Shown: positions 68 to 15,587 of the stretch, in pieces
How positions within the stretch are numbered: position 1 is the first letter of the stretch
Layout of the letters: every line of letters starts with the position of its first letter
Source of the DNA: an uncultured Blastocatellia bacterium
GTDB lineage: Bacteria; Acidobacteriota; Blastocatellia; Pyrinomonadales; Pyrinomonadaceae
Direction: 5' to 3'
DNA: 15,955 bases
Assembly: GCA_946480785.1 (NCBI GenBank)
Contig: CAMLLD010000104.1
Location: 1-15,955 of the forward strand
Program-made: the position numbers and the translations under genes
Notes under the pieces: model-generated
The model's input: the letters and a program-made list of their open reading frames with translations, nothing else
Told to the model about the DNA's origin: nothing
The model's database searches: none

Positions 68-1879
68 ATGCGCTTTGGATACCGGCCGTTAGTTGTCGCG
101 CTATTAGTCTGCACTTTTGTGCACGTTGGGTTTGCTCAGACCGTCGCACGTGTTAGCGAGATGCGGGCGGCGATCGAGCGTTACACAGCGGACCGCGGCA
201 GTCTGACGCGCTCGTATCCGGTGGCGATCTCGCCCGCGCGGCGCGCGCGTTTCAAGAAGTTCTATGAGGAGTGGCTGGCGTCACTGAAATCGTTGGACTT
301 CGACGCGATGAGCCAGGAAGGCAAGATCGATTATCTGCTGTTCAAGAACCATCTCGAATATGAGTTGCGGCAGTTGGATATTCAGGCGCAGCAACTCGCC
401 GAGGTTCAACCGCTCGTTCCCTTCGCGAATACGATTATCGATCTCGAAGAAGCCCGCCGGCGTATGGAGCCGATCAATTCAGGCCAGGTCGCGGCTACGC
501 TGACGGAGTTGAAGAAGCAGGTGGACGAGCGCAGGCGCGCGGTTGAAGGCGGTTTGCAAGTGAAGAAGACCGTGGCGAATCGTGCGGTGGCGATGATGAC
601 GTTGCTGCGCATGAGTTTGCGCAACTGGTACACGTTCTACAACGGTTACGATCCGCTCTTCACGTGGTGGAACGACGAGCCTTACAAGTCTCTCGAAGAG
701 TCACTCACCAGTTACGAAACGTCGATTAAGGGGCGGCTGCTCGGGTTTCGCGCGGAAGCGGCGAAGGCTCAGTCCGTCACGACCCCGCTGCCGGGATCTC
801 AGGGCGTTCCAGGCGCTTCAGGCGCGAGGCCTAACGTCGCACGTGCCGGTGACGCCAGCGACATCGTGGGCGATCCGATCGGCCGCGAGGCGCTGCTCGT
901 CGAACTGCGTTCCGAGATGATTCCTTACACGCCCGAAGAATTGATCGCGATTGCCGAGAAAGAGATGGCGTGGTGCGAGAACGAGATGAAGAAAGCGTCG
1001 CGCGATCTCGGTTACGGCGACGACTGGCGCAAAGCGCTCGAGTACGTCAAGAACCTCTACGTCGATCCCGGCAAACAACCCGAGATGATTCGCGACCTCG
1101 CGCTCGAAGCGATCAAGTTTGTCGAAGACCACGATCTCGTCACGGTGCCGGAGCTGGCGAAAGAGAGTTGGCGCATGGAGATGATGACGCCCGAACGCCA
1201 GCTCGTGAGCCCGTTCTTTCTCGGCGGCGAAGTTATTCAAGTCTCGTTTCCGACCAACACGATGGCCCACGAGCAGAAGATGATGAGTATGCGCGGCAAT
1301 AACATTCACTTCGCGCGTGCGACCGTCTTTCACGAGCTCATTCCCGGCCATCACCTGCAAGGCTTTATGGCCGCGCGCAACAAGCCGTATCGTGCGATCT
1401 TCGGCACGCCGTTCTGGACTGAAGGCAACGCGCTTTACTGGGAGTTGTTGTTTTGGGATCTCGGCTTCGCGAAGTCGCCGGAGAATCGAATCGGGATGCT
1501 CTTCTGGCGGATGCACCGTTGCGCGCGCATCATCTTTTCACTCAACTTTCATCTGGAGAAGATGACGCCGCAGGAGTGTATTGATTTTTTAGTGAACCGT
1601 GTGGGCCACGAACGCGAGAACGCGACTGCGGAAGTGCGGCGTTCGTTCGATGGCAGCTACGGTCCGCTCTATCAGATCGCCTATCTGATCGGAGGCCTTC
1701 AACAATACGCTCTGCACAAGGAGCTGGTCGATTCCGGCAAGATGACGAACCGCGTCTTCAACGACGCCCTTTTGCACGAGAACCGCATCCCCATCGAACT
1801 CCTCCGCGCCGCGATTACGAACCAAAAGCTCACGCGCGATTTTGTGACGAACTGGCGGTTTTACGGCGACCCGAAGTAG
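68..1879 (+). CDS. Secreted DUF885 family protein, putative zinc metallopeptidase
   Basis: This 603-residue protein belongs to the DUF885 family, whose members look like zincin-type peptidases. Residues 1-23 form a signal peptide (basic start, hydrophobic core, cleavage near GFA-QT), so the product should act in the periplasm or outside the cell. HELIPGHH spans residues 422-429, and the FWTEGNALYWE segment follows with Glu452. By analogy with gluzincins, His422, His428 (or His429) and Glu452 would bind zinc, with Glu423 as catalytic base; this is inferred from the motif. A Gly/Pro/Ala-rich stretch near residues 237-268 looks like a flexible linker or insertion. The length is normal for the family. 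The start is supported by a Shine-Dalgarno site. The gene converges on the DUF4384 gene across a repeat-filled gap. The substrate is unknown; peptides are the likeliest guess. Confidence 0.93.
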   Translation: MRFGYRPLVVALLVCTFVHVGFAQTVARVSEMRAAIERYTADRGSLTRSYPVAISPARRARFKKFYEEWLASLKSLDFDAMSQEGKIDYLLFKNHLEYELRQLDIQAQQLAEVQPLVPFANTIIDLEEARRRMEPINSGQVAATLTELKKQVDERRRAVEGGLQVKKTVANRAVAMMTLLRMSLRNWYTFYNGYDPLFTWWNDEPYKSLEESLTSYETSIKGRLLGFRAEAAKAQSVTTPLPGSQGVPGASGARPNVARAGDASDIVGDPIGREALLVELRSEMIPYTPEELIAIAEKEMAWCENEMKKASRDLGYGDDWRKALEYVKNLYVDPGKQPEMIRDLALEAIKFVEDHDLVTVPELAKESWRMEMMTPERQLVSPFFLGGEVIQVSFPTNTMAHEQKMMSMRGNNIHFARATVFHELIPGHHLQGFMAARNKPYRAIFGTPFWTEGNALYWELLFWDLGFAKSPENRIGMLFWRMHRCARIIFSLNFHLEKMTPQECIDFLVNRVGHERENATAEVRRSFDGSYGPLYQIAYLIGGLQQYALHKELVDSGKMTNRVFNDALLHENRIPIELLRAAITNQKLTRDFVTNWRFYGDPK

Positions 1880-2047
1880 TGAGTTTGGCCGGCGAGATTT
1901 CTCTTTGTCGCGGAGCATCACCTTCGGCTCACCAGGATTTAGATGGTTTAGTAGCTGGAAATCTGTGCGACACGTTCGTACCAACTGCAATACCCGGGAC
2001 GACGGCTGTGATGAGCAATGGGCAAAAAGCTTTGCAGAAAAACGTGA

Positions 2048-2254
2048 AACGCCGAAGGCGTTAACTAATGCCAGCCCAGGGTGGGAGCGTAGCGACACCC
2101 TGGGGAAAGACCATCAAGACAGCCTGCAACGCTGAAAGCGTTGGCCACGATCTCCAAGCAAGGTTCGCCAACGCTTTCAGCGTTCGCGTGCGCTTTCTTT
2201 TTGGTACCCAGGGTATGAACCCTGGGCTAGAATTCGCGAACTCCTTCGGAGTTC
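2048..2254. repeat. REP/BIME-like inverted duplication of palindromes
   Basis: Six elements are arranged almost symmetrically. The left half holds AACGCC-GAA-GGCGTT (2048-2062), then CCCAGGGTG with CACCCTGGG (2075-2083 and 2096-2104), then AACGCTGAAAGCGTTGGC (2128-2145). The right half repeats the order reversed and complemented: GCCAACGCTTTCAGCGTT (2167-2184, exact complement of 2128-2145), CCCAGGGT-ATGA-ACCCTGGG (2207-2226) and GAACTCC-TTC-GGAGTTC (2238-2254). In both halves the outer hairpin reaches the AGCCCAGGGT element at the same distance. Each outer hairpin has a GAA or TTC triplet as its loop. The whole is a roughly 207-bp imperfect inverted repeat resembling paired REP elements. No transposase accompanies it. 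Confidence 0.85.
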
Positions 2255-2260
2255 ACCTCC

Positions 2261-2320
2261 CACACCTGCGTTCAGCTCTAACACCTGCGGTTCAGATCCA
2301 ACACCTGCGTTCAGCTCAAA
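2261..2320 (+). repeat. Short tandem repeat, about 20-bp unit, three copies plus a remnant
   Basis: The unit ACACCTGCGTTCAGCTC recurs at 2262, 2281 and 2301 with periods of 19-20 bases. The middle copy has one extra G and an A in place of C. A degraded fourth copy (AACTGCGTTCT) starts near 2319. There are no unique spacers between copies, so this is not a CRISPR array. The array sits between the palindrome cluster and the end of the DUF4384 gene. Its function is unknown. Confidence 0.75.
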
Positions 2321-2349
2321 ACTGCGTTCTACGACGAGGAACAAACAGA

Positions 2350-3225
2350 TCACCGCCGATACGAAAGCCGCAGCTTCACGAACATCGAATCGGTCGATTT
2401 CAAACTCGGGCGATAAAACAAAAGCTGTGGGGCGGGGGCGGTGGAGGTTAGGGCGCGGGTGCGCGATTCTTTCTCTTCTTTGGTCCAGGCCTGGCCCACC
2501 GTCGACATCTCCAACTTACCCACACCTGAACCCCACATCTTTTCCCAACTCGCAACTTGCGTCTCACTCAACTTCTGCGCTTTGTCAGTGATCTGCACGC
2601 CTTCGAGCGGCGCCGGTGTCACCAGCACACTCACGACCTCGGCAACGTGGTCGGGACGGCTTTTGCGCATCGTGAAGAACGGCGGCGCGTCATCCTGCGC
2701 AGGAATTTCAAGCAGTCTGCCGGCGCTCACCGAGTTGTCACCACCTACAGTGCGCGTCGTAGGAAAGATCAAGTAAGGCTCGCCTAACGAACCGTCCGCA
2801 TACTGCTCGCGATCGATCACGTAGAGATAACCCGAACGCACCGCTTCCACACTGATGCGCAGTCGATCGCCCTGCGCGAGTTTCGTCGTCGACGAGATGC
2901 GCTCCGGCAACCACTCGGTGGTCGAGTTGTCGTCGTGAACGATCAGCCGCTCGCCCGAATCGGAGCGGTTCGCCGGACGGAGACGCCAAATGGTAACGCC
3001 GACAACCGTGTCGGGGGCCACGTTATCGACAGGCACATTCGGCGTCGCTACACGATAGCGTCCGCCCGGCCGGCGCCGGCTCGCCGTGGGTTTGTTCGCC
3101 GCCGGAATGATGAAAGCGGTGTCCCAAAGTTTTCGCGTGGCTTCGTCCGTCTTTTGGGCCGTGGCCAAAAACGAAGCCGCCACAATGAGGACCAGCATCA
3201 AGAAAAAACTCGTGAGTGACTTCAT
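2350..3225 (-). CDS. Secreted DUF4384 domain protein
   Basis: From the chosen start this is a 291-residue protein. Residues 1-23 are a signal peptide (MKSLTS, long hydrophobic core, ATAQ). A low-complexity basic linker runs to about residue 60. The DUF4384 region covers about 75-200: VVGVTIWRLRP, then GDRLRISVEAVRSGYLYVID and a YLIFPT strand. A conserved tail follows with WEKMW (227-231) and a closing strand. The ATG at 3225 is preferred over upstream ATGs because AAGGAG (3233-3238) lies seven bases ahead and the ATG overlaps the CHAT stop as ATGA, indicating translational coupling. DUF4384 domains commonly accompany CHAT, caspase-like and kinase proteins; the biochemical role is unknown. The module resembles the C-terminal half of the nearby kinase. 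The likely role is binding or presenting a partner or ligand for the CHAT protease in the envelope (inference). Confidence 0.9.
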   Translation of the reverse strand: MKSLTSFFLMLVLIVAASFLATAQKTDEATRKLWDTAFIIPAANKPTASRRRPGGRYRVATPNVPVDNVAPDTVVGVTIWRLRPANRSDSGERLIVHDDNSTTEWLPERISSTTKLAQGDRLRISVEAVRSGYLYVIDREQYADGSLGEPYLIFPTTRTVGGDNSVSAGRLLEIPAQDDAPPFFTMRKSRPDHVAEVVSVLVTPAPLEGVQITDKAQKLSETQVASWEKMWGSGVGKLEMSTVGQAWTKEEKESRTRALTSTAPAPQLLFYRPSLKSTDSMFVKLRLSYRR

Positions 3226-6200
3226 CTCCATTCTCCTTGCATCACAAACGGCGCCCAGTAATAAGGCGACTGCCATTGCGAGGTACGCAGCAGCTCGATC
3301 TGCGCCGCACGCAACGCAGCCGCAGGCGTCTTGCCGTCGCGTAACATGCCCGCGTAAAGACGCTGCATCAACGAGGCCGTCGCTTTGTCGTTAACATTCC
3401 ACAAACTCACAATCACGCGGCGAGCGCCGGCGTACATGAAACCGCGCGTCAGACCTTCGAGCCCTTCACCTTGCACATCTTTGCCGAGACCCGTTTCACA
3501 CGCACTCAGCACGACGAGCTCCGCCGGAAGTTTCAGGTTGTAAACGTCATGCGTGCGCAGGAACCCGTCCTGCGGTTTGCCCTCCGCGTCGTAAAGCGAA
3601 AGCACGATCGCGGAAAGACCAGCGCGCGTCGTGTCGAGATAACCATGCGTGGCGAAGTGAACGTAGCGATACTTGCTGAGTTCGCCGCCGGTAGCGATCT
3701 CGCGATTCGCGCGAAAGTCGAGCGCTTTCAGGTTCGATCCGTTGCGCGCGACGGCGAGAATTTGATCGGCTTCAGTGCGCGTGAAGGGCAAACGTGAAAT
3801 CGAAAGCTGGCCGCCTATTGCTGTTCCAGCGGGAAGATGTTCAAGACTCCGCGTACCGGCTGCGACCGCAGATGTTTCGGCGCTTCTTTTGACTCGCGGA
3901 TCGTTCGTGGAAAAAACGGGATCCGCGATCACGGCGAGCGTTTTCGGCGCCGGTTCGCGATTCGCGAGGTTCTGTCGTTGCACTGCAAACGCCGAAGCCG
4001 ACGACAAGCTCACAACTTCATGGTCCAGGATCAGCGGACGATGATTCGCAACCGGCAACGCAGCAAACGGAACGTATTGCAAAGCGCCATCGGCAACGAT
4101 CACTAAACGTTTATCCTTCAACTCCGCAGCCGCCGGCCCGAGAATCATCCGGCTTAGTTCGGCAGCCGATTGTTGGAACTGAGCGTCCGCCGCAGCGATG
4201 CGCGCGGTGCGCTGCGCCGGTGTTTCGATCGACTTCGAAACGCTGCGCGCAACCAGCGACTCGTACGCTTGCCGCGCAAGCTCCTGAATCGCGTCCTGCT
4301 TCGGCAGCACGTAAGACTTTAGCGAATCCGAGCCGACGAGCCACAGATAACTGCGCTCACTTCCGAGCGCGTACTCGAGCAGCAACGTATCCGGATCGAG
4401 TTGTTGCTGAATCTCTTTCAACCCCAACGGCTGCGGCTGCGTTAGCGCCGCGTACTGCGGACTGCTTTGACGAATCGCCGCCTCTACCTGCTGGTATTGG
4501 TCTTCAAGCGCGCTAATCTCACGCTCCAGGGTCGCGAGTTCCTCACCGCTGTCCTTGCGCAGCTTGAGTTGCAACTCACGTTGTGCTTTGGCGTTCATGT
4601 CGCGCGTGACTTCGCGTTCCTTTTCCAACAACCCCGCGTCCACGCCGCGGCGAATATCGACACGCGCTTCGTTCAATTGCTCCACGAGACTGCGCGCGCG
4701 GCTGCGTTCACTCGCCTGCAAAGCCTCAGCATCAAAGCCGCGCGCCGGCTCCGCCGCGTGCTGTTGCATCAACGCGTCGATGTAAAACTCGTACGCTTTC
4801 TCGATCGACGCGCGATAAGAAGCGCGCAATTGAAGGCTACCAGATCGAGCACGAACGGTTTCTCGCAACGCGAGCGACTCGACGATCCGTTTGCGCGCCT
4901 CTTCCAGGTGGCCGCGCTTCTGTTCCGCCCGCGCGATTCCTTCCAAAGCCATGCCGGCGTTGCTGAGATCGCCGAGACTGCGAAACGTCGCGAGAGCCTG
5001 CGTAAATCGCTCGATGGCCTGGTCCGGCTGGTTCCGCAGATTGAGGGCTTCACCACTATTCATGACCGCTATTGCCTCGCGGCGCAAATTGCCGGCAGCG
5101 TGCAGCGCTTCGATTGCCTGTTGGTGATATTCGATTGCCTTTTGACTCTGTCCCTCTGCTGCGTACGTCATCCCGAATTCGTCGAGCGTCTCGCCTTCCT
5201 GCGCGTGATTGCCGGTTTCGCGTTGCAGCGTCTGCGCCTGGCTGAAATACAGTCGCGCCTTCTCGTATTCACTCAACCGTCTGTAGGACCGGCCAATGTT
5301 CAAGAGCGTGTATGCCTGGGCGTTCTTGTCGGTCCCTAATCGCAGCAGAGTGAGGGCTTGCTGCAGGTAGTCGAGTGCTTTCTCCGGTTCGCCTGAATTG
5401 GCGTAGGCGATACCGATATTGTTGAGGGTGAGCGCGATGTTTTGTTTGCTGTCGAGGGCCTGGTAGATCGGCAACGCCTGCCCGAAGAACTCGAGCGCCT
5501 TCTGCCAGTCGGCCACGTCGCTGTAGATTTTGCCGATGTTGCTGAGCGCGTTTCCTTCAGCTAATTGCCAGCCTCCTGCATGCGCTAACTTGAGTGCTCG
5601 TTGGTAATGATTCAAGGCCTTGCTGATGTCGCCGAGGATGTCGAGCATGCCGCCGGCGTAAGTCAGCGTTCCCGCTTCCAGACGCGAATCTTTAAGGCTG
5701 GCTGAGAGCGTGAGCGTTTGATCGAAATAGTCGAGCGCTTTGCGATAATCGTTCAAGCGGTAATAAGAGATGCCAATGGACAACAAGGTGAGGGCGCGCC
5801 GGTACGTGTTACCCGCCGCCTCAAAGAGCGGCAGTGCTTGTTCGTACTTATCGATTGCCGCACGCTTTGGCGGCGCGCCTTGTTGCACCCGCAGTTTTCT
5901 CGCTTCGTCGAAGAGCACCTGGGCCGCCGCGTGGTCCTTGTCAATCGCGCTCGCATCGCGCAAAGCAACGATCTTTATTTCATAACGTCCGGTAGGCGCT
6001 TGCGCGTTTGGCGCGCGGATGTCAACGCGATACTCGCCGGAAACCGGAGCAACGAGAATGATCGGTTCCGATCCCCAGCGATCGTTCGGGCTGTCGCTCT
6101 CGGTGAGTTGTTTGCCATCGGGACTGAAGACTGCGGTAACGACGTCAACATCCTGTTGCTCGACAATCGCGTTCAGGAATTGACCGGACGTGAGCGCAAT

Positions 6201-6350
6201 TCGATAAGAGTTAGTTTCGCCGCCTTTCAGGTCGCGGGTGACTGCGGCGAGCGCCGGCAACTCCTTCGCTGTTTGTGCAAACACAGACAGCGCAGAGATC
6301 GCCAGCGCCGCTAACAGTCGAACCACAGGTGGAAACAGCCTCTTGTTCAT
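3222..6350 (-). CDS. Secreted TPR-CHAT (caspase-like) protease
   Basis: This 1042-residue protein has a signal peptide (1-25, ending VFAQ) and a beta-sandwich at about 38-130 resembling pre-peptidase C-terminal domains (DVDVVTAVFSPDGKQL, SGEYRVDIRAP). A helical repeat region follows with eight TPR units of exactly 40 residues (about 186-505). Next come helical or coiled-coil segments (about 540-630) and a C-terminal CHAT domain (about 650-1042). The CHAT caspase-type dyad is intact: His902 in HFATHGYLD and Cys951 in LSACETGLG, 49 residues apart. CHAT proteins are clan CD cysteine peptidases related to caspase and separase; the TPRs would bind partner or substrate. Secretion is notable because many CHAT effectors are cytoplasmic. 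The gene lies 47 bases after the duplicated-domain gene and overlaps the DUF4384 gene by four bases. No strong Shine-Dalgarno precedes the ATG. Substrate and activating signal are unknown. Confidence 0.95.
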   Translation of the reverse strand: MNKRLFPPVVRLLAALAISALSVFAQTAKELPALAAVTRDLKGGETNSYRIALTSGQFLNAIVEQQDVDVVTAVFSPDGKQLTESDSPNDRWGSEPIILVAPVSGEYRVDIRAPNAQAPTGRYEIKIVALRDASAIDKDHAAAQVLFDEARKLRVQQGAPPKRAAIDKYEQALPLFEAAGNTYRRALTLLSIGISYYRLNDYRKALDYFDQTLTLSASLKDSRLEAGTLTYAGGMLDILGDISKALNHYQRALKLAHAGGWQLAEGNALSNIGKIYSDVADWQKALEFFGQALPIYQALDSKQNIALTLNNIGIAYANSGEPEKALDYLQQALTLLRLGTDKNAQAYTLLNIGRSYRRLSEYEKARLYFSQAQTLQRETGNHAQEGETLDEFGMTYAAEGQSQKAIEYHQQAIEALHAAGNLRREAIAVMNSGEALNLRNQPDQAIERFTQALATFRSLGDLSNAGMALEGIARAEQKRGHLEEARKRIVESLALRETVRARSGSLQLRASYRASIEKAYEFYIDALMQQHAAEPARGFDAEALQASERSRARSLVEQLNEARVDIRRGVDAGLLEKEREVTRDMNAKAQRELQLKLRKDSGEELATLEREISALEDQYQQVEAAIRQSSPQYAALTQPQPLGLKEIQQQLDPDTLLLEYALGSERSYLWLVGSDSLKSYVLPKQDAIQELARQAYESLVARSVSKSIETPAQRTARIAAADAQFQQSAAELSRMILGPAAAELKDKRLVIVADGALQYVPFAALPVANHRPLILDHEVVSLSSASAFAVQRQNLANREPAPKTLAVIADPVFSTNDPRVKRSAETSAVAAGTRSLEHLPAGTAIGGQLSISRLPFTRTEADQILAVARNGSNLKALDFRANREIATGGELSKYRYVHFATHGYLDTTRAGLSAIVLSLYDAEGKPQDGFLRTHDVYNLKLPAELVVLSACETGLGKDVQGEGLEGLTRGFMYAGARRVIVSLWNVNDKATASLMQRLYAGMLRDGKTPAAALRAAQIELLRTSQWQSPYYWAPFVMQGEWR

Positions 6351-6397
6351 GCTCGTAGCCAGTCTTCCAAACGACCAGCGGCCATGTATTCGCCGTA

Positions 6398-7105
6398 CTA
6401 AGCCGAGGCAGCCGAAGCACTCTCTTCCCCTTCTCCGACGGGGCCCACCCCAGATTGAGCCTGGAACGTGCCATCCTGCTCGTTGGTGATGCTGTCAGGA
6501 TTTGACCAGTGGCCGCACGCCTGCTCGTCGTCGATCACGAATTCAGTAACAGTCCAGTCGATTGAATCATGCGTAAAACTCCAATCCGTGCCGGACGTCA
6601 AGCCGGACTGAAGTAGATTGTCGTGCTTACTGTAGAAGTCGTAGGGACCGCCAGGCGCCGTTGGTACGAAGTAACAATGCTTCAGCTTGTCCTTGTCCGA
6701 CCCGCCCGTCACCATGTTGTCATGAATGAGGATGGCGTCGGCTGGCCGCGTGTCGGCAGCCTCTTTTTTGTCGTCATCGGTGAGATCACCAACACCCGAT
6801 TGAGCTTGAAACGTTCCTTCTGGTTCAGCAGCGTTTTCGTCGATTTGCCAGTGTCCGCACGCTCCGCTTTCGTCAATGTGAAACTTGATCACATGGAAGT
6901 TAAGGTCATCAATGGTGAAGTTGAAATCCTGACCGGACACGATGTTAGCCGCCCGAATCTTATTCCCCGGGGTAAAGAAGTTGTAGACCCCGTCGGGCTG
7001 GTTGGGCGCGTGCTGAAAATAACACTGATGAAGCACTTTCCCGCGTTCGCCGGTAGTAGTGTTGATCGCTATCTTTAGGCTGATGGGGCTGATGTTGTCG
7101 TTCAT
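6398..7105 (-). CDS. Hypothetical protein with two copies of an unknown domain
   Basis: I do not recognise a family for this 235-residue protein. The ATG at 7105 is chosen because AAAGGAG (7112-7118) sits six bases ahead; an ATG twelve codons upstream has no such site. There is no signal peptide or membrane segment, so it is probably cytoplasmic. It contains an internal duplication of about 85 residues (about 22-106 and 139-221). Each copy has the order CYF, YNFF or YDFY, SGxDxxFT, FxID, ACGHW and GTFQAQSGVG, rich in aromatic residues and predicted mostly beta. Cys28/Cys83 and Cys144/Cys197 are equivalent positions. An acidic linker joins the copies, and a Glu/Ser/Ala tail ends the protein. 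It is the first gene of the CHAT operon, so it may be a cytoplasmic partner, inhibitor or sensor for that system; this is guesswork from position. Confidence 0.85.
   Translation of the reverse strand: MNDNISPISLKIAINTTTGERGKVLHQCYFQHAPNQPDGVYNFFTPGNKIRAANIVSGQDFNFTIDDLNFHVIKFHIDESGACGHWQIDENAAEPEGTFQAQSGVGDLTDDDKKEAADTRPADAILIHDNMVTGGSDKDKLKHCYFVPTAPGGPYDFYSKHDNLLQSGLTSGTDWSFTHDSIDWTVTEFVIDDEQACGHWSNPDSITNEQDGTFQAQSGVGPVGEGEESASAASA
6443..7042 (-). repeat. In-gene tandem duplication encoding two beta-type domains
   Basis: Two related coding blocks, about 7042-6788 and 6691-6443, encode homologous domains in one gene. The strongest identity is at the end of each copy, where both encode ACGHW and then GTFQAQSGVG. 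The DNA has diverged enough (AGATTGAGCCTGGAACGTGC against CGATTGAGCTTGAAACGTTC on the plus strand) that this is an old duplication, not a recent copying event. Confidence 0.8.
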
Positions 7106-7111
7106 TGTCGT

Positions 7112-7118
7112 CTCCTTT
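7112..7118 (-). promoter_or_regulatory. Shine-Dalgarno site of the duplicated-domain gene
   Basis: On the minus strand AAAGGAG lies six bases before the ATG at 7105, one of the strongest ribosome binding sites in the window. It decides the start codon in favour of 7105 over the ATG at 7141. Confidence 0.75.
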
Positions 7119-7324
7119 GGTGGGTGGTGTTGTTCACACAAGCGAAACGCCTGTGCTCTGGGCGGCGAACGTGCGCCCTGGCCGGGTTGCGCGTCGCACT
7201 CGTCTCAATTATTAACGCGAGAACTTTTCGAGAAAACCACCAAAATCCGGCCCTGCCGAATGCGTCTGCATTGTGCTGAGAGGGAAAACTAAATCCTGGA
7301 AGAGTCCGGGTTTTGAATGGCCGG

Positions 7325-7353
7325 ATCATATGCCGCGAACCGGCGGAGGTCAA
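7325..7353 (-). promoter_or_regulatory. Sigma70-like promoter for the CHAT/DUF4384 operon, with a long leader
   Basis: On the minus strand TTGACC (7348-7353) and TATGAT (7325-7330) are separated by 17 bases. Each hexamer matches the sigma70 consensus at five of six positions. The site begins 13 bases after the kinase stop codon. Transcription would start near 7318 and leave an untranslated leader of about 210 bases before the ATG at 7105. That leader contains a near-palindrome GGCGAACGTGCGCC (7164-7177, plus strand). I recognise no riboswitch and no independent terminator in it. The promoter implies that the effector operon can be transcribed separately from the sigma-kinase genes. Confidence 0.55.
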
Positions 7354-7366
7354 TCGTGTTTCGTAA

Positions 7367-9196
7367 TCAGTGGTGTTCGAGCTTGACCGGATACACGAGG
7401 ACGTTGTCGGTTGTTTTGACTGTCGTCAGCGTGTCGCCGCGTTCGACTTCCGGTTTGCTCGTTGTTTGCGTCAATAAGAAATCCTGCACGAGTTTGTTCT
7501 GCGCCGGATCGGTGATGAGTCCGCCGGTTTTCTGACTGGCAAACTTCTTCAGCGCGTCAACCTCTGGTATCGCGTCCCTGGAAAAGATCAGCCACACTCG
7601 TTCAATCCCCTGCTCCTTGTCGAAAGTGAACCAGCTCACCGCGGGAATCTGGAGCTCGGTGTTGGCGCTTAGCAGAGACGAGCCTTCGTTTGCTGTCGGC
7701 GAGGGGAAGAGCACAACAAACTCGGCCGCGTCGGAACCGTTTCGCGGTCCTTCGTTGAGCACGTAGAGATGACCGGCTTGCGGACTACGAACGTTTAGCC
7801 GGATCGCGTCTTTCAACTCAAAATTGATCTCGCCCGCGAGCGTATAGATTTTTTCCTTTCCCGCTCTCGTCTGGCGCACTGTGATCCAGTAGGTGAGCGC
7901 TCGTTCAGAAACGGGCCCAACGGACGTACTGGTCGTCGTTGCCGTAGCGGCAGGTTGCGCTCGCGAGCGGCGCCAGACGTTAACGCCGAAAGTCACCGCA
8001 ATGAAGAAGGCCAGCACCAGGAGGGCAACAGCCAAGGCGCGCTTATTGTCGGTTTTACGATCACGCTGGTCCAAAGCAACAGGTCCGCCCTCGAGCTGCT
8101 TTCTCAGGTTGCGCAGATCGATCAGCATGTCCTTCGCTGTTTGATATCGATCTTCAACGTCCTTCGCCATCGCCTTGTTAACGATCCGTTGCAACTCAGG
8201 CGGCGTCTGCGGAGCCGCTTTCGCGAGCGGCGGCGGATCGTTCTCGATGATCTGCACGAGCGTGTGACTAATGGTTGGACCACCGAACGGCATCGCGCCG
8301 GTCACCATCTCGTAAAGCATCACCCCCGTGCTCCAGATGTCGGTGCGTTCATCGACGGCGCGCGACTGCGCCTGTTCGGGAGACATGTAGTTGATCGTGC
8401 CCATCAACATGCCGGGCGCGGTCTTCATCTCCGTCGCTGCTTCGGAATCAGAATTGTGATCCCTCGCTAGCGTCGGTTGCTTCTCGGTCACTTTCGCCAA
8501 ACCGAAATCGAGCACTTTCACGACGCGATCGCGCCGGCGAATCATCACGTTTTCCGGTTTGATGTCGCGGTGAACGATGCGCGCTTCGTGCGCGGCGTCG
8601 AGCGCGGCGAGTATTTGGATCGTGATGTCGAGAATTTCAGTCAGCTTCAGGCGTTGGGTACGCAAATGGTCGCGCAGCGTATGGCCGTCGATGAACTCCG
8701 TCGCGAGATACGTCAAAGTGTTCGCTTCGCCGAACTCGAAGATCGTGAGGATGTTTGGTTGGTTCAACGATGACGCGACTCTCGCTTCCTGGCGAAAGCG
8801 CTGCATGCGTCGCTTGTCTGACGAGACGTCGGTGGAGAGCACTTTCAACGCGACGGTGCGATCGAGACGCGAGTCGCGCGCGAGATAAACCTCGCCCATG
8901 CCGCCAGCGCCGAGTCGATCGAGAATGAAATAAGCGCCAAACTGCTGGCCTTTATTGAGCGCGGGAGCGTGTTCTTCATTGATGCTCAGCAACGCAGCGC
9001 CCTGCTCCGCCGCGTGTCCGCCGATGAAGTTTTCCGCATTCGCCTGCTGATGCGACGCAATCAGTTTCTCGACTTCGGAACGCAGCGCGTCGTCGTCGCC
9101 GCATTTCTCCGCCACAAAATCGCGGCGCGCATCACTGTCGAGCGAGATGGCCGATTTGAAAATCTGACTGATCTGGCGCCAGCGTTCGGGAGTCAA
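7367..9196 (-). CDS. Transmembrane Ser/Thr protein kinase with extracytoplasmic DUF4384-like domain
   Basis: This 609-residue protein opens with MTPERWRQI, the N-terminal segment typical of kinases paired with X6-type ECF sigma factors. The kinase domain covers about 87-365, with glycine loop LGAGGMGEVY, Lys118 (VALK), Glu137, the catalytic loop HRDIKPEN (Asp211), DFG at 230-232 and SPE at 272-274. All key residues are present, so it should be active. A single membrane helix spans about 386-407. The outer part (about 430-609) resembles DUF4384 (IRLNVRSPQAGHLYVL, FVVLFP) and the secreted protein encoded at 2350-3225. The TTG at 9196 overlaps the sigma factor stop as TTGA, and the N-terminus fits the family from its first residue. 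The likely job is to sense an envelope cue and phosphorylate the sigma factor or other cytoplasmic targets (inference). Confidence 0.94.
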   Translation of the reverse strand: MTPERWRQISQIFKSAISLDSDARRDFVAEKCGDDDALRSEVEKLIASHQQANAENFIGGHAAEQGAALLSINEEHAPALNKGQQFGAYFILDRLGAGGMGEVYLARDSRLDRTVALKVLSTDVSSDKRRMQRFRQEARVASSLNQPNILTIFEFGEANTLTYLATEFIDGHTLRDHLRTQRLKLTEILDITIQILAALDAAHEARIVHRDIKPENVMIRRRDRVVKVLDFGLAKVTEKQPTLARDHNSDSEAATEMKTAPGMLMGTINYMSPEQAQSRAVDERTDIWSTGVMLYEMVTGAMPFGGPTISHTLVQIIENDPPPLAKAAPQTPPELQRIVNKAMAKDVEDRYQTAKDMLIDLRNLRKQLEGGPVALDQRDRKTDNKRALAVALLVLAFFIAVTFGVNVWRRSRAQPAATATTTSTSVGPVSERALTYWITVRQTRAGKEKIYTLAGEINFELKDAIRLNVRSPQAGHLYVLNEGPRNGSDAAEFVVLFPSPTANEGSSLLSANTELQIPAVSWFTFDKEQGIERVWLIFSRDAIPEVDALKKFASQKTGGLITDPAQNKLVQDFLLTQTTSKPEVERGDTLTTVKTTDNVLVYPVKLEHH

Positions 9197-9774
9197 TTCG
9201 AGGCACTCTCGGCAAGTTGTTTATGGAGCCACGCGCGTGCCATGTTCCAGTCGCGCGTGACGGTGTTTTCGGAAACGTGCAATACGCCCGCGATCTCCTC
9301 GTTGTTCAAGCCGCCGAAGTAGCGCAGCTCGACCACCTGGCTGCGCCGTGAATCCATTTCGGCGAGAGTCTTCAACGCTTCGTCAAGCCGGAGCAACTCC
9401 GCCCCGATGCCGCTCGTCACCGCCACGGCTTCGTCGAGCGAGACTTGTTGCGCGCCGCCGCCGCGTTTCGCATACGCGTGCCGGCGCGCGTGATCGATCA
9501 GGATGCGGCGCATGATCTGCGCGGAGATGGCGAAGAAGTGCGAACGATTGGCCCAATGCACGTTCTTCTGATCGACGAGCCGCACGTAAGCTTCGTTGAT
9601 CAAAGCGGTGGTTTGCAGCGTGTGGCCTTTTCGTTCCCGGCTCATGTAGCGGCGCGCGAGCCGGTGCAGCTCGTCGTAGACCAGCGGATACAACTCGTCG
9701 AGCGCGGACTGGTTTCCATCGCTCCATTCAGCGAGCAGTTGCGTGATCTCGTGCTGCTTTGGTGGTCTTCTCAA
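9193..9774 (-). CDS. ECF sigma factor, sigma-70 X6 type
   Basis: This 193-residue sigma factor has region 2 in the first half (ALDELYPLVYDELHRLARRY, then HTLQTTALINEAYVRLVD) and region 4 in the second (VVELRYFGGLNNEEIAGVL, a helix-turn-helix with VSENTVTRDW). Ordinary ECF factors carry acidic residues in region 2.2 that bind core polymerase. Here the stretch is LQTTALINEAY (residues 53-63), largely neutral and with Thr55 and Thr56. Kinase-dependent ECF factors such as Vibrio EcfP lack the acidic patch and are switched on by threonine phosphorylation in that region; the adjacent kinase makes this plausible here. The start appears to be TTG at 9774, directly after an in-frame TAA and without a Shine-Dalgarno site. 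The gene is only 12 bases downstream of the ferritin-like gene, so translation may depend on coupling. No anti-sigma gene is visible. Confidence 0.93.
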   Translation of the reverse strand: MRRPPKQHEITQLLAEWSDGNQSALDELYPLVYDELHRLARRYMSRERKGHTLQTTALINEAYVRLVDQKNVHWANRSHFFAISAQIMRRILIDHARRHAYAKRGGGAQQVSLDEAVAVTSGIGAELLRLDEALKTLAEMDSRRSQVVELRYFGGLNNEEIAGVLHVSENTVTRDWNMARAWLHKQLAESASN

Positions 9775-9786
9775 TTAATAATTAAA

Positions 9787-10245
9787 TCAGGTCTGGTACT
9801 GCGTGATCTCGCCGGGCTTGCGCAACATCTTGTTCACTTCACCGACGTGCAGCTCTTCCTCCGCGATCATGCGGCGAGCATATTCTTCAAGCAACACTGA
9901 ACGATCGCGCACCAGTTCCAAAAGTTGCTTGTAAAGAGCGAGTCCCTCGTTCTCAGCTTTGAGTGATTCGATGAGGATGTCGTTGATGCCGTGTTTGTGC
10001 GTCTCGAGCAGCGCGCCGATCTTCAGTGACGGATGCTCGCCGAAATGCGTGACGAGTTCGCCCGCTTCGTTCGCGTGCGCGAGACAAGTGGTCGCTTCGT
10101 TGCGCAACCAGCTCACGATCGGAATACGGTTGTGACCAAAAACCATGAGGGCGTAATGCGTATAGCGCACGACGCCCGCGAGTTCGGCTTCCATTATGTG
10201 GTTTAGTAGTTTGACCGCCGTCGTCTTATCGAAATCTTCCGCCAT
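9787..10245 (-). CDS. Bacterioferritin-like ferritin-fold protein
   Basis: This 152-residue four-helix protein matches the bacterioferritin/ferritin-like superfamily in length and motif order. By comparison with E. coli Bfr, candidate di-iron ligands are Glu21 (EAELAGVVRY), His57 (CLAHANE), Glu98 (KAENEG), Glu130 and His133 (EEELH). The glutamate normally three residues before the first histidine seems to be Cys54 instead. If my alignment is right, the metal site is altered. No methionine in the usual haem-binding place is obvious to me. The likely role is iron storage or peroxide and iron handling in the cytoplasm. AAGGAGG sits three bases before the ATG, rather close. The gene starts eight bases after the dimethylargininase-like gene and ends 12 bases before the sigma factor gene. 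Assignment to true Bfr rather than a related ferritin-like family is uncertain. Confidence 0.85.
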   Translation of the reverse strand: MAEDFDKTTAVKLLNHIMEAELAGVVRYTHYALMVFGHNRIPIVSWLRNEATTCLAHANEAGELVTHFGEHPSLKIGALLETHKHGINDILIESLKAENEGLALYKQLLELVRDRSVLLEEYARRMIAEEELHVGEVNKMLRKPGEITQYQT

Positions 10246-10253
10246 AGTCCTCC

Positions 10254-11024
10254 TTAAAACCGCAACGACAGGCAGCTAAGGCCGCCGTCCATCTTTTCAA
10301 ACTCCGACATCTCTAATGTGACTGTTTGATAACCCAGATTCTGCAACTTCTGTCGCAGCAGCGGAAAACCCGCAGCTACCAGAATCGAGTCGTTTACGCA
10401 CAAACAGTTTGCGGCGTATGCCTCTGCGCTGTCTACGTCCATCAGATCGTAATCGGAAAGTTGTTCCAGTCTCTTTAGCTCGTCAATCACGAGCATCCGG
10501 TTGCCGCCGAGATAAGCGAGTCCGCTCTTTAAGTGCAGGATATTACTCAGGCTGCGGATGTCGATCAAAGTCGAATCGTAGCCGAACGCGCTGAGGACGG
10601 CTGCGAGTTGCGCGGCGCCGTGTTCGTTGGTGCGGTGCGAAACGCCGATAAAGAACTCGTTGCCCGCTTCGCAAATGTCGCCGCCGTCGAGTGTGCCGGG
10701 CTCACTGATCTCGAAAACGCGCGGATAGTGGTCCAGCAACACGCTGCGGATCTCTTCGATCTCACCGAGCCGGCTGGCAGCTCCCGGTCGCGTGATGATC
10801 GCGCCGCGTTCCGTCAACACCGCCGTGTCTTCCACAAACGTTGAATCCGGATAGCGCTCGTCAGCCGCCAGATGCGTCAACTTTAAGCCGCAGTTTTCGA
10901 GCGCACGGCAATAGGCTGCATGCTGTTCGAGCGCGAGGTCGTAATTCGGCTTGCCGAGATCGACACGCGTCAGACCATCGGCGAAGTTCGCAGCAGGAGG
11001 TCGAACAATCGCGCGCGTGAACAC
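10254..11024 (-). CDS. Dimethylargininase-like (DDAH family) amidinohydrolase
   Basis: This 256-residue enzyme belongs to the guanidine-modifying (pentein) superfamily and best fits NG,NG-dimethylarginine dimethylaminohydrolase, which converts methylated arginines to citrulline plus methylamines. Visible signatures are DSTFVEDTAVL (60-70, with Glu65/Asp66), LDGGDI (112-117), the catalytic His164 in ILHLKSG, and Cys251 in the closing DGGLSCLSLRF. Length and C-terminus are typical of bacterial DDAH-like proteins. Arginine deiminase-type activity on another guanidino compound cannot be excluded. Translation starts at GTG (11024), immediately after the transporter's TGA, with GGAAGG eight bases upstream lying inside the transporter's last codons. 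This arrangement points to coupling. Placement between a peptide importer and a ferritin-like gene suggests catabolism of methylarginine released from peptides, an inference only. Confidence 0.92.
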   Translation of the reverse strand: MFTRAIVRPPAANFADGLTRVDLGKPNYDLALEQHAAYCRALENCGLKLTHLAADERYPDSTFVEDTAVLTERGAIITRPGAASRLGEIEEIRSVLLDHYPRVFEISEPGTLDGGDICEAGNEFFIGVSHRTNEHGAAQLAAVLSAFGYDSTLIDIRSLSNILHLKSGLAYLGGNRMLVIDELKRLEQLSDYDLMDVDSAEAYAANCLCVNDSILVAAGFPLLRQKLQNLGYQTVTLEMSEFEKMDGGLSCLSLRF

Positions 11025-13692: not shown

Positions 13693-14664
13693 TCAAATAC
13701 AAAAAGGCGTGAAGGACGCGAGGTGGTTTTGGAGCGCCTTCGCGCCGGTGATCTCGTAGGGTTGTTGCGGCGCAAGGAAGATTTCGATTGAGCGCCGGCG
13801 AAACTCATTGCCGCGAAACTTTGCACAGAACTCGTTCGCGACTTCGAGCTGTCCTTTGCGTCGGGCTTTGCAGAAGCGGCACTGCTTCGCCGCATCTTCT
13901 GAAACCACGCCGTTGATGATCAATCTCCGCAATGGCACTTTCAATTTATCCAGCGCCTTCGCGAGATCCATCGTCTCTTCCAAACTCATCCGCTCGGGAA
14001 TCGCCACGCCGACAAACTCGCACGTCTCCGGATCTGTCAGCAGCGCCAGCACGCGCTTGATGCTTTTCGATAACGCGACCAGTTCCTCCGCGACTTCGGT
14101 TGCGCGCACCACGTTCTGATATTTCAACAACAGCTTCATGAACGTCCTGATCCACGAGAGCGCGACCTCGGGCAATTCGAGAAAGCGGATCAGATGGCCC
14201 GTCGGCGCAGTGTCGAGAATGATCGAGTCGTAACGGTTTTCGTCGAGCAGTTCGCTGATCGTGCCGAGCGCGGCTATCTCGTCGATGCCGGGTGGAGTTA
14301 GTTCGACGAGCTCGCGCATCGCTTCGCGATCGAACTGGATCTCCATGCCCGCACGACCGGACAGCGACGTAAACAGATCGTCAGTCCACGAGCGATAACG
14401 TTGCTTGAGCTCTTCAAACCACTTGCCGGGATCGATCTCCATCGCGTCGAGATTCTTGCGGCCCGCGACGCCCTTTTTAAGTTCGCCGATCGGTTCGGCG
14501 AAGCCGTCGGATAGTGAGTGCGCGGGGTCGGTGGAAAAGACGAGCAGTTTGCGTTTGGGATCTTGTTTGGCCGCGCCCAGCGCGTACGATGCCGCGGCAG
14601 TAGTCTTCCCAACACCACCCTTCCCACCGAAGATCGTTATTTTTTTGATTTCGGCGCCTTCCAA
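13693..14664 (-). CDS. ArsA/Get3-family P-loop ATPase (downstream copy)
   Basis: This 323-residue protein has the single ArsA/Get3 ATPase domain. The deviant Walker A with signature lysine is at 13-21 (GGKGGVGKT), switch I STDPAHS at 44-50 and switch II DTAPTGH at 151-157. A CxxC pair (Cys262, Cys265 in CRFCKARR) corresponds to the zinc-binding pair that joins Get3 dimers. The family includes arsenite-pump ATPases and tail-anchored-protein targeting factors. No arsenic genes are nearby, so a Get3-like role in handling hydrophobic or assembly clients seems more likely than arsenic resistance (inference). The only usable start is TTG at 14664, with AGGA eight bases upstream inside the preceding gene, giving a 28-base overlap with the other ATPase. 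The stop lies five bases from the convergent VWFA gene. Confidence 0.93.
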   Translation of the reverse strand: MEGAEIKKITIFGGKGGVGKTTAAASYALGAAKQDPKRKLLVFSTDPAHSLSDGFAEPIGELKKGVAGRKNLDAMEIDPGKWFEELKQRYRSWTDDLFTSLSGRAGMEIQFDREAMRELVELTPPGIDEIAALGTISELLDENRYDSIILDTAPTGHLIRFLELPEVALSWIRTFMKLLLKYQNVVRATEVAEELVALSKSIKRVLALLTDPETCEFVGVAIPERMSLEETMDLAKALDKLKVPLRRLIINGVVSEDAAKQCRFCKARRKGQLEVANEFCAKFRGNEFRRRSIEIFLAPQQPYEITGAKALQNHLASFTPFCI

Positions 14665-15587
14665 ATCGTAGTTCCTATTTTCTCCAACTGGTCCAACCCT
14701 CTAACCTCGTCGACCATCAGCGGCACCTGATGAATGCGAAGCTCCGCGAAAGTTTTCTCAATTTCCTTCAACCACGGCCGTTGCGTCTTCACACGCGCGC
14801 GACAATACACGCAACCCGCATGTTCCTGCTCCACTCGATTCACGATCAAATCCCCAACCGGCACGCCTTGCTTTCTCAACAATTCCCAATAACGCTCAGT
14901 CTCGCGCACACTCATCGCTTCAGGGATTGCGACCAAAGTAAAGTTCGTCTGCTCCTCGTTGTAGAGCATCTTGCGCACCGCTTCGATCCGCGCCGTCAGA
15001 TCCTGAAGAAACAGATCGACTTCATCCGCCACGGCTCTGCGCCTTGCGAAGTGCTCGATCATGTAGCGATGCTTCTCGCCCATGCGATCGAGCGCATGGA
15101 CCATGCGCGTGAACACTTCCGGCAAACGCAACAACCGCGACGTGTGTCCCGACGGCGCGGTGTCGACGACAAGGTGCGCGTACTTCCCTTCCCGATCCAA
15201 CTCGCTCAACTCAAACAACGACATCACCTCGTCGAGTCCCGGCAACGAAAGGTTCAACAACTCATTGATGTCTTCTTCGTCGAGCAACGTGCCGCGTTCC
15301 GCGATCTCCGCGAGCACCTTCCCGTGCGCGGTGCGAAAGCGTTCGAGCGCAAGCGTCGCGTCCATCTCGTACGCGATGAGCTTCGCGCCGTTGCGTTCGG
15401 CAACGCGAACCAGACGATTGCCGATCTTCACGTCCAGACTGTCAGACAGCGAATGCGCGGGATCCGTCGAGAAAAGCAGGATGGAATCGTTTTTGGTGAG
15501 GGTGTTAAGAAGAAACAGGGCGGTGGCGGACGCAGCGGTAGTTTTGCCGACCCCGCCTTTCCCACCGAAGAATAGATATCGCTTCAC
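14637..15587 (-). CDS. ArsA/Get3-family P-loop ATPase (upstream copy)
   Basis: This 316-residue protein is a second ArsA/Get3-type ATPase. Walker A GGKGGVGKT is at 8-16, TDPAHS at 41-46, DTAPSGH at 142-148, and the CxxC pair at Cys259/Cys262 (CVYCRAR). It is clearly paralogous to the downstream copy but quite divergent, especially in the helical client-binding part (about 85-130 and 160-215), so the two probably handle different clients or form a heterodimer. The start is GTG at 15587 with no clear Shine-Dalgarno. It is in the same frame as the preceding gene, whose TGA lies 24 bases upstream, and the only in-frame start after that stop is this GTG. Overlap with the downstream ATPase gene implies one transcript. 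No arsenite transporter or regulator gene is visible. Confidence 0.93.
   Translation of the reverse strand: MKRYLFFGGKGGVGKTTAASATALFLLNTLTKNDSILLFSTDPAHSLSDSLDVKIGNRLVRVAERNGAKLIAYEMDATLALERFRTAHGKVLAEIAERGTLLDEEDINELLNLSLPGLDEVMSLFELSELDREGKYAHLVVDTAPSGHTSRLLRLPEVFTRMVHALDRMGEKHRYMIEHFARRRAVADEVDLFLQDLTARIEAVRKMLYNEEQTNFTLVAIPEAMSVRETERYWELLRKQGVPVGDLIVNRVEQEHAGCVYCRARVKTQRPWLKEIEKTFAELRIHQVPLMVDEVRGLDQLEKIGTTIWKAPKSKK

Follow-up and report, generated by a model that had tools for sequence, protein, structure and literature searches.

A predicted phospho-ECF sigma factor module with a TPR-CHAT protease and a candidate toxin- and lectin-like regulon in uncultured Acidobacteriota

In extracytoplasmic function (ECF) sigma factors with a kinase partner, the acidic DAED motif of region 2.2 is missing, and EcfP carries STTA instead, the second Thr of which is phosphorylated (PMC8999054, in the excerpts available). 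For the ECF43 group, QTTA is given as the consensus, and 88% retain the Thr (PMC13147305, available passages); the hallmarks named in the excerpts of both papers are STTA/QTTA replacing DAED, direct phosphorylation and linkage to a kinase. Here, we describe a five-gene module encoded at positions 2350-9774 of contig CAMLLD010000104.1 (assembly GCA_946480785.1) from an uncultured Blastocatellia bacterium of the family Pyrinomonadaceae; the whole stretch analyzed, 15,955 nt in length, is referred to as the window. The module encodes an ECF sigma factor, a membrane Ser/Thr kinase, a small protein, a caspase-like protease with tetratricopeptide repeats and a CHAT domain (TPR-CHAT), and a secreted DUF4384 protein. 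It shares a non-acidic xTTA/xATx motif in the ECF sigma factor and an adjoining transmembrane kinase with the ECF43-kinase pairs EcfP-PknT of Vibrio parahaemolyticus and EcfK-PknS of Xanthomonas citri, and the kinase-sigma pair is of an already known kind.

Unlike in these two pairs, the outer domain of the kinase is a DUF4384 domain, and the operon consists of a barrel protein, CHAT and DUF4384 proteins. EcfK-PknS induces the type VI secretion system (T6SS) upon contact with amoebae and so also commands an antagonism apparatus (PMC13147305, in excerpt), whereas the probable targets in relatives of the window organism are toxin- and lectin-like genes and no T6SS. In the ECF54 group, with CHAT, subtilase and carboxypeptidase in its context, the ECF gene likewise adjoins CHAT-domain genes, but the accessible part of PMC8999054 proposes regulation by proteolysis, while a kinase partner and QTTA are found here. 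The caspase/EACC conflict systems with ECF (eLife 2021, PMC8195603, partial text) have a caspase-like protease gene near an ECF sigma factor in common with the module; they contain EACC2-caspase proteins with variable C-terminal domains, in contrast to the TPR-CHAT protein and kinase considered here. The TPR + CHAT architecture is also that of Csx29 of type III-E CRISPR (Craspase), from which the present protein differs in its signal-peptide-like start; within the window, there was no Cas family among the 10 proteins scanned with Pfam and no Rfam match at gathering scores. Among the matches listed from the open-access PubMed Central literature, no description was found of this composition, the DUF4384 sensor, the barrel family or the promoter with its toxin-/lectin-like target set, and no paper in that literature was found to bring the CHAT domain and DUF4384 together.

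Based on the results given below, we suggest, with a probability of about 0.6, that the locus acts as a phospho-ECF switch for a regulon serving antagonism or defence against predators, the CHAT and DUF4384 proteins being its periplasmic arm. The features of the locus are as follows.

9193-9774, minus strand: ECF sigma factor, 193 aa (TIGR02999/PF07638), with the region 2.2 motif QTTA at residues 54-57 and a predicted phospho-Thr56
7367-9196, minus strand: Hanks-type Ser/Thr kinase with one transmembrane segment and a C-terminal DUF4384 domain (Pfam matches)
7325-7353, minus strand: sigma70-like promoter candidate TTGACC-N17-TATGAT, directly 3′ of the kinase stop
7213-7242, minus strand: predicted ECF target promoter TGGTG-N15-TCTCGCGTTA, 107 nt ahead of the small gene
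6398-7105, minus strand: two-repeat small protein, 235 aa, with no database family
3222-6350, minus strand: TPR-CHAT caspase-like protease, 1042 aa (PF12770 and TPRs), with a signal-peptide-like start
2350-3225, minus strand: DUF4384 protein, 291 aa, with a signal-peptide-like start and a predicted Ig-like beta-sandwich

All five open reading frames (ORFs) thus lie on one strand within about 7.4 kb, where the original prediction had placed them. The ECF and kinase ORFs share a 4-nt overlap, and so do the CHAT stop and the DUF4384 start (ATGA), which agrees with the translational coupling proposed earlier for the latter two genes. The small gene ends 47 nt before the CHAT gene, and an intergenic region of about 260 nt with a conserved promoter-like element separates it from the kinase gene. 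Because of this gap and the gene order, the module is probably transcribed in two units, ECF-kinase and small-CHAT-DUF4384. The small gene most likely starts at ATG 7105, which is preceded by an AAAGGAG box, rather than at TTG 7141, and the DUF4384 gene most likely at 3225 rather than at 3276. PADLOC found only a TPR model and kinase models among the window proteins, and nothing system-specific.

The sigma factor matched PF07638 (E 9.9e-60) and TIGR02999 (E 1.3e-69) in Pfam and NCBIfam, and it has QTTA at residues 54-57, where ordinary ECFs have DAED. Thr occupies the EcfP phosphosite position in all 18 aligned ECFs, the window included; QTTA itself is present in 10 of them, and the others have QATA, QPTA, QPTV, EATS or EPTL. 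The kinase domain (PF00069, E 1.3e-50) contains the VALK, HRDIKPEN and DFGL catalytic motifs and is followed by a transmembrane segment at about residues 387-408 and by the C-terminal DUF4384 domain, which is predicted to lie outside the membrane. Both ECF43-type features are therefore found here, namely, QTTA with a conserved Thr and an adjoining Hanks-type kinase gene. From the motif and the gene pair, we infer that the kinase most likely activates the sigma factor by phosphorylation, with Thr56 as the first candidate. In view of the ECF43 QTTA motif, this reading is preferred to the earlier proposal that the sigma factor resets expression.

The outer domain of the kinase matched PF14326 (DUF4384) with E 1.6e-6 and 28.5 bits, above the curated cut-off of 27 bits, and the secreted protein matched it with E 2.1e-5 and 24.9 bits, under that cut-off. 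Comparison of the two by hhalign profiles gave a probability of 92.4 (E 5.3e-7), in accordance with the relationship suggested in the original prediction. The signal-peptide-like starts of the CHAT and DUF4384 proteins also speak for its view that both are extracytoplasmic. A fold search with DUF4384 gave generic Ig-like matches only, with no Foldseek match at E<=0.001.

The CHAT protein matched PF12770 with E 2.9e-66 (224.3 bits against a cut-off of 24) in addition to TPRs. It contains HFATHG (His902) and LSACETG (Cys951), both residues being invariant in 20 aligned sequences, the window included. We take them to be the His-Cys catalytic dyad of CHAT peptidases, and the protein is a predicted caspase-like protease. 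Elsewhere, at L029 and at L045, a locus that is also L105 and L191 (L, G and C numbers are our handles for loci, genomes and contigs), the CHAT genes are preceded by an anti-sigma-like protein of about 320 aa, recognized by eye, in a non-kinase arrangement.

To place the module among its relatives, we used 119 genomes, that is, the GTDB family of the closest relative examined, an Acidobacteria metagenome-assembled genome (L001) that is syntenic with the window over the entire locus and its flanks. The kinase outer domain was found in 31 of these genomes and the DUF4384 protein in 30 (both E<=1e-25), and the CHAT protein in 53 (E<=1e-150). The 12 strongest kinase-outer-domain matches, from 11 genomes (L001 and L125-L135), were read in detail. 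A TPR-CHAT-family gene lies downstream on the same strand in 12/12, a partly biased count; three of these loci (L126, L127 and L132) are truncated by the end of the contig ahead of the CHAT domain, and the match covers just the front part of the protein (E 1.1e-57, 1.4e-224 and 9.9e-297, respectively). An upstream ECF gene is present in 10/10 loci readable that far, and a downstream secreted DUF4384 gene in 7/8 readable loci, with the exception of L131, where there is none within 5.8 kb. The small ORF between kinase and CHAT is found in 8/12 loci and is absent in L129, L130, L131 and L133. Such synteny indicates that the arrangement is not due to chance, and it bears out the earlier claim that the genes form one conserved system, for which lack of co-occurrence in this survey would have been fatal. 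Among weaker matches, kinase and DUF4384 genes occur with no CHAT gene between them in L136, L138-L142 and L144 and, at the class level, in L180, L182, L184 and L185, while L175-L179 and L181 keep kinase and CHAT. Since the former pattern is frequent, kinase + DUF4384 may be the older core, of which ECF-kinase-small-CHAT-DUF4384 would be a conserved elaboration.

Alignment of the kinase-small intergenic regions of four close modules revealed conserved islands within a diverged background. The strongest island is TGGTG-N15-TCTCGCGTTA, and positions 7242-7213 are its sole exact match in the window. Among modules having a small gene, 8/9 carry the element ahead of it, the window included (seven with N15 and L125 with N17), and in L134 a second copy precedes the DUF4384 gene. 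The 119 genomes were searched with the pattern TGGTGN{14,17}TCTCGCGTTA, using the reversed motif as a control. As a result, 20 sites were found in 8/119 genomes (G001, 5; G098, 5; G100, 3; G101, 2; G117, 2; G088, G093 and G059, 1 each), compared with three reversed-control sites (G023, G028 and G090), none of them in the seven genomes with the module and small gene. Sites occur in 6/7 of the latter genomes (not in G107) versus 2/112 others (Fisher 5.6e-8), but the carriers helped to define the motif, and the independent point is the extra sites away from the module. In a phylum sample of 396 genomes, the N15 form was found only in G001 and G101 (control, 0). The two sites of G117, with differing spacer letters, stand beside another QTTA ECF-kinase pair (L239), and the N17 site of G059 may be chance. 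This distribution suggests that TGGTG-N15-TCTCGCGTTA is the probable promoter of the ECF sigma factor. The upstream TTGACC-N17-TATGAT is kept in three of the four closest modules (window, L001 and L128), with only the second box in L126, and may serve the operon as a sigma70-like promoter. Inspection of the alignment by eye had hinted at RNA structure in the leader, but this was rejected (z-score 0.26).

Of the 20 sites, eight belong to the module, and nine more lie elsewhere in G001, G098 and G100. These three carriers have nine exact extra sites, compared with three in the 113 genomes left when the six having module sites are set aside. Two additional sites (G088:C189 and G098:C217) were found with a longer pattern at <=3 mismatches, which gave 17 sites in 5/12 genomes searched (control, 0). 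The extra sites precede the following genes.

L228: MACPF protein as the first gene (E 1.7e-15)
L229: DUF900 hydrolase (E 1.5e-16)
L230: 527-aa protein with a signal-peptide-like start and no recognized family
L231: ORF of uncertain status, 333 nt from the site, having a signal-peptide-like start and no recognized family
L232: LamG protein (E 3.7e-18)
L233: GH18 (E 2.4e-13) + Jacalin protein
L234: RicinB + Toxin_10 protein (E 1.6e-14)
L235 (G098:C161): three tandem Phage Tail Collar (PF07484) genes at 1453-3015, minus strand, starting 336 nt away
L236: 196-aa protein with no recognized family
L237: 110-aa protein with no recognized family
L238: TPR protein matching the front of the CHAT profile (E 4.3e-159), with a signal-peptide-like start, cut by the contig end

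No signal-peptide-like start was seen in 8/11 first genes (the exceptions are L230, L231 and L238). As a control, ten neighboring genes at 10/11 extra-site loci were scanned, and no toxin or lectin domain was found in them.

On these grounds, the following mechanism can be proposed. The membrane kinase would sense a cue outside the inner membrane via its DUF4384 domain and phosphorylate the partner ECF43-type sigma factor, most likely at Thr56; the phosphate would supply the negative charge needed for binding to RNA polymerase. The active sigma factor would then initiate at TGGTG-N15-TCTCGCGTTA promoters, one of which would drive the operon of the small barrel protein, the secreted TPR-CHAT protease and the secreted DUF4384 protein. 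Dispersed pore-former-, lectin-, chitinase- and hydrolase-type genes of relatives have this promoter sequence ahead of them and may be regulated by it; toxicity is presumed for their products. The most likely role would be attack on, or defence against, other organisms, e.g., grazing protists or competitors, and antagonism fits the nearest precedent, EcfK-PknS. In the periplasm, CHAT would process some substrate, and modulation of either the protease or the kinase is the probable task of the DUF4384 protein, given the domain shared with the kinase.

Sigma-factor activation by kinases is a recently recognized mechanism, and the two worked-out cases cited are proteobacterial; by prediction, the locus extends it to uncultured soil Acidobacteriota and offers an exact phosphosite and promoter for testing. 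A candidate regulon, with proteins of the MACPF, BinA/B-like, ricin, jacalin and LamG types, is also connected here with TPR-CHAT proteases that have signal peptides and with DUF4384, a domain so far unexplained. As a consequence, the role of secreted CHAT proteases in such bacteria becomes directly testable, and the motif can be used to find effectors in metagenomes.

Several points weigh against the proposed antagonism regulon. Four of the 11 first genes (L230, L231, L236 and L237) have no recognized family, the genes at L231 and L235 are distant (333 and 336 nt), and at L238 the gene runs off the contig. The window organism is represented by one site only, that in the window, and the regulon is seen in relatives. 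The 12-locus CHAT count is partly biased in that profile A4 contained L001, L125, L126 and L127, which were found via the small protein beside CHAT; in loci outside this profile, CHAT is present in 8/8. L135 (G107) has the module and a small gene but no TGGTG site, and none of the four modules without a small gene carries the site, so that CHAT is not always under this promoter. L125 has the longer-spacer site but a QATA-type ECF, 50% identical, which makes the assignment of sigma factor to promoter unclean there. Given the L125 sigma type, the missing site in L135 and the modules lacking both small gene and site, the wiring varies among relatives. Finally, replacement of EcfK Thr51, the matching site, with Ala keeps function, and a second site in the linker, Thr106, counts (PMC13147305, in excerpt); by analogy, Thr56 need not be the sole switch.

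The original prediction saw in the five genes a closed envelope loop. In such a self-contained envelope-stress system, the kinase, CHAT and DUF4384 proteins would monitor the envelope, the sigma factor would adjust their expression, and the toxin-like genes would be incidental. The signal-peptide-like starts, the shared DUF4384 domain, the second promoter copy in L134 and the distant loci with kinase + DUF4384 but no CHAT between them, a possible older core, are all consistent with it. However, the excess of exact extra sites in three carriers and the skew of the downstream genes, but not of the control neighbors, toward toxin and lectin domains make it doubtful; the loop is probably not closed, as the probable sigma promoter also precedes dispersed toxin-/lectin-like genes in relatives. 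Nor did the sequence-based analysis turn up any sign of feedback from CHAT or DUF4384 on the kinase. It is very unlikely that CHAT acts upstream, with control of the sigma factor exerted by proteolysis of either the secreted DUF4384 protein or the outer domain of the kinase, as suggested for ECF54. The coupling of the CHAT and DUF4384 genes and the CHAT genes in the ECF54 context (PMC8999054, accessible part) would suit this idea, but the cleavage is hypothetical, QTTA points to phosphorylation as the switch, and the position of CHAT behind the putative sigma promoter is that of a target.

We give equally little credence to the idea that the element serves another regulator, as promoter or operator, and is co-inherited with the ECF-kinase pair by coincidence. 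The exceptions L125 and L135 would be explained in this way, and a sigma70-like sequence does lie upstream of the element; on the other hand, the G117 sites stand beside another QTTA ECF-kinase pair, the fixed two-box spacing suits an ECF promoter, and the element is missing from almost every searched genome that has no module. The antagonism regulon can also be drawn more boldly, as a 'poison-pill': contact with prey or an attacker would lead the kinase-activated sigma factor to induce pore-formers, lectins and glycosidases that stay in the cytoplasm, as they have no signal peptides, and the periplasmic CHAT protease would open the cell or otherwise release them, with the small barrels as diversifying effectors or CHAT substrates. 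We consider this version quite improbable.

Injection or lysis is a possible exit for the target proteins without a signal peptide. Contractile sheath genes were found in 3/6 carriers searched (G001, G098 and G101) and the T6SS gene for VipB in one (G088); the promoter sites of G001, G098 and G101 do not fall at their sheath loci. Contractile-injection-like loci with two sheath genes each were seen in the module-carrying genomes G001 (L248, C7) and G101 (L249, C31).

The small protein had no matches in Pfam, NCBIfam or PADLOC and starts without a signal-peptide-like sequence. It is tentatively predicted to form two 8-stranded calycin-like barrels. GTFQAQSGVG stands at the end of both repeats, and the residues after it are acidic and disordered. 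Some relatives, L001 among them, have a single barrel, and across relatives, which have 1 to 3 repeats, the protein is the fastest-evolving part of the module. The small proteins are a new, fast-diverging family of predicted beta-barrels. The two-domain protein of the original prediction is an optional member of the module (8/12 relatives) and variable in repeat number. A scan of GTDB-220 with the small-protein alignment gave 93 pattern matches, none confirmed by tblastn, the family being too divergent for this test. The repeated GTFQAxSGGG was considered as a cleavage site, an idea that loses weight because the model places GTFQA in the final strand of the barrel, leaving only the disordered residues that follow as a candidate. 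A conserved C-terminal ASA signal was dropped, as it is absent from the small proteins of L125, L132, L134 and L135.

Encoded directly ahead of CHAT genes, the small proteins share little beyond a brief tail motif with an aromatic residue, in most cases G[TSE][FWY]xA. The regular expression [GP][TSE][FWY].[AGV].[SATQ] picked 7/177 ORFs (90-400 aa, greedily chosen, 37 loci), all of which immediately precede a CHAT-family gene; it was drawn after viewing the sequences and is descriptive rather than an independent test. When a looser expression was run on the ORFs preceding 124 CHAT-family ORFs, a few that look unrelated were picked as well (e.g., in L020, L040, L074 and L080). At L189 (G101:C19, 2255-8287, minus strand), the gene upstream of CHAT has a similar tail motif, GTWEASQGG; downstream are genes for proteins of 192 and 367 aa that look sigma- and anti-sigma-factor-like by eye, and no kinase was seen. 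At L187 (G151:C1170, 838-2708, minus strand), an ECF-kinase(DUF4384) pair is followed by three tandem proteins of 180-200 aa with alike C-termini (..QVDPEMDVMAE), another small-protein family in the equivalent position, with no CHAT on that strand.

Outside the module, genes for DUF885, ferritin-like and arginine-deiminase-family proteins flank it in the window (68-1879, plus strand, and 9787-11024, minus strand), a position kept in L001 and partly in L126, L128 and L190. Further along, at 13693-15587 on the minus strand, two adjoining and overlapping ORFs encode ArsA/GET3-like ATPases, as judged by eye.

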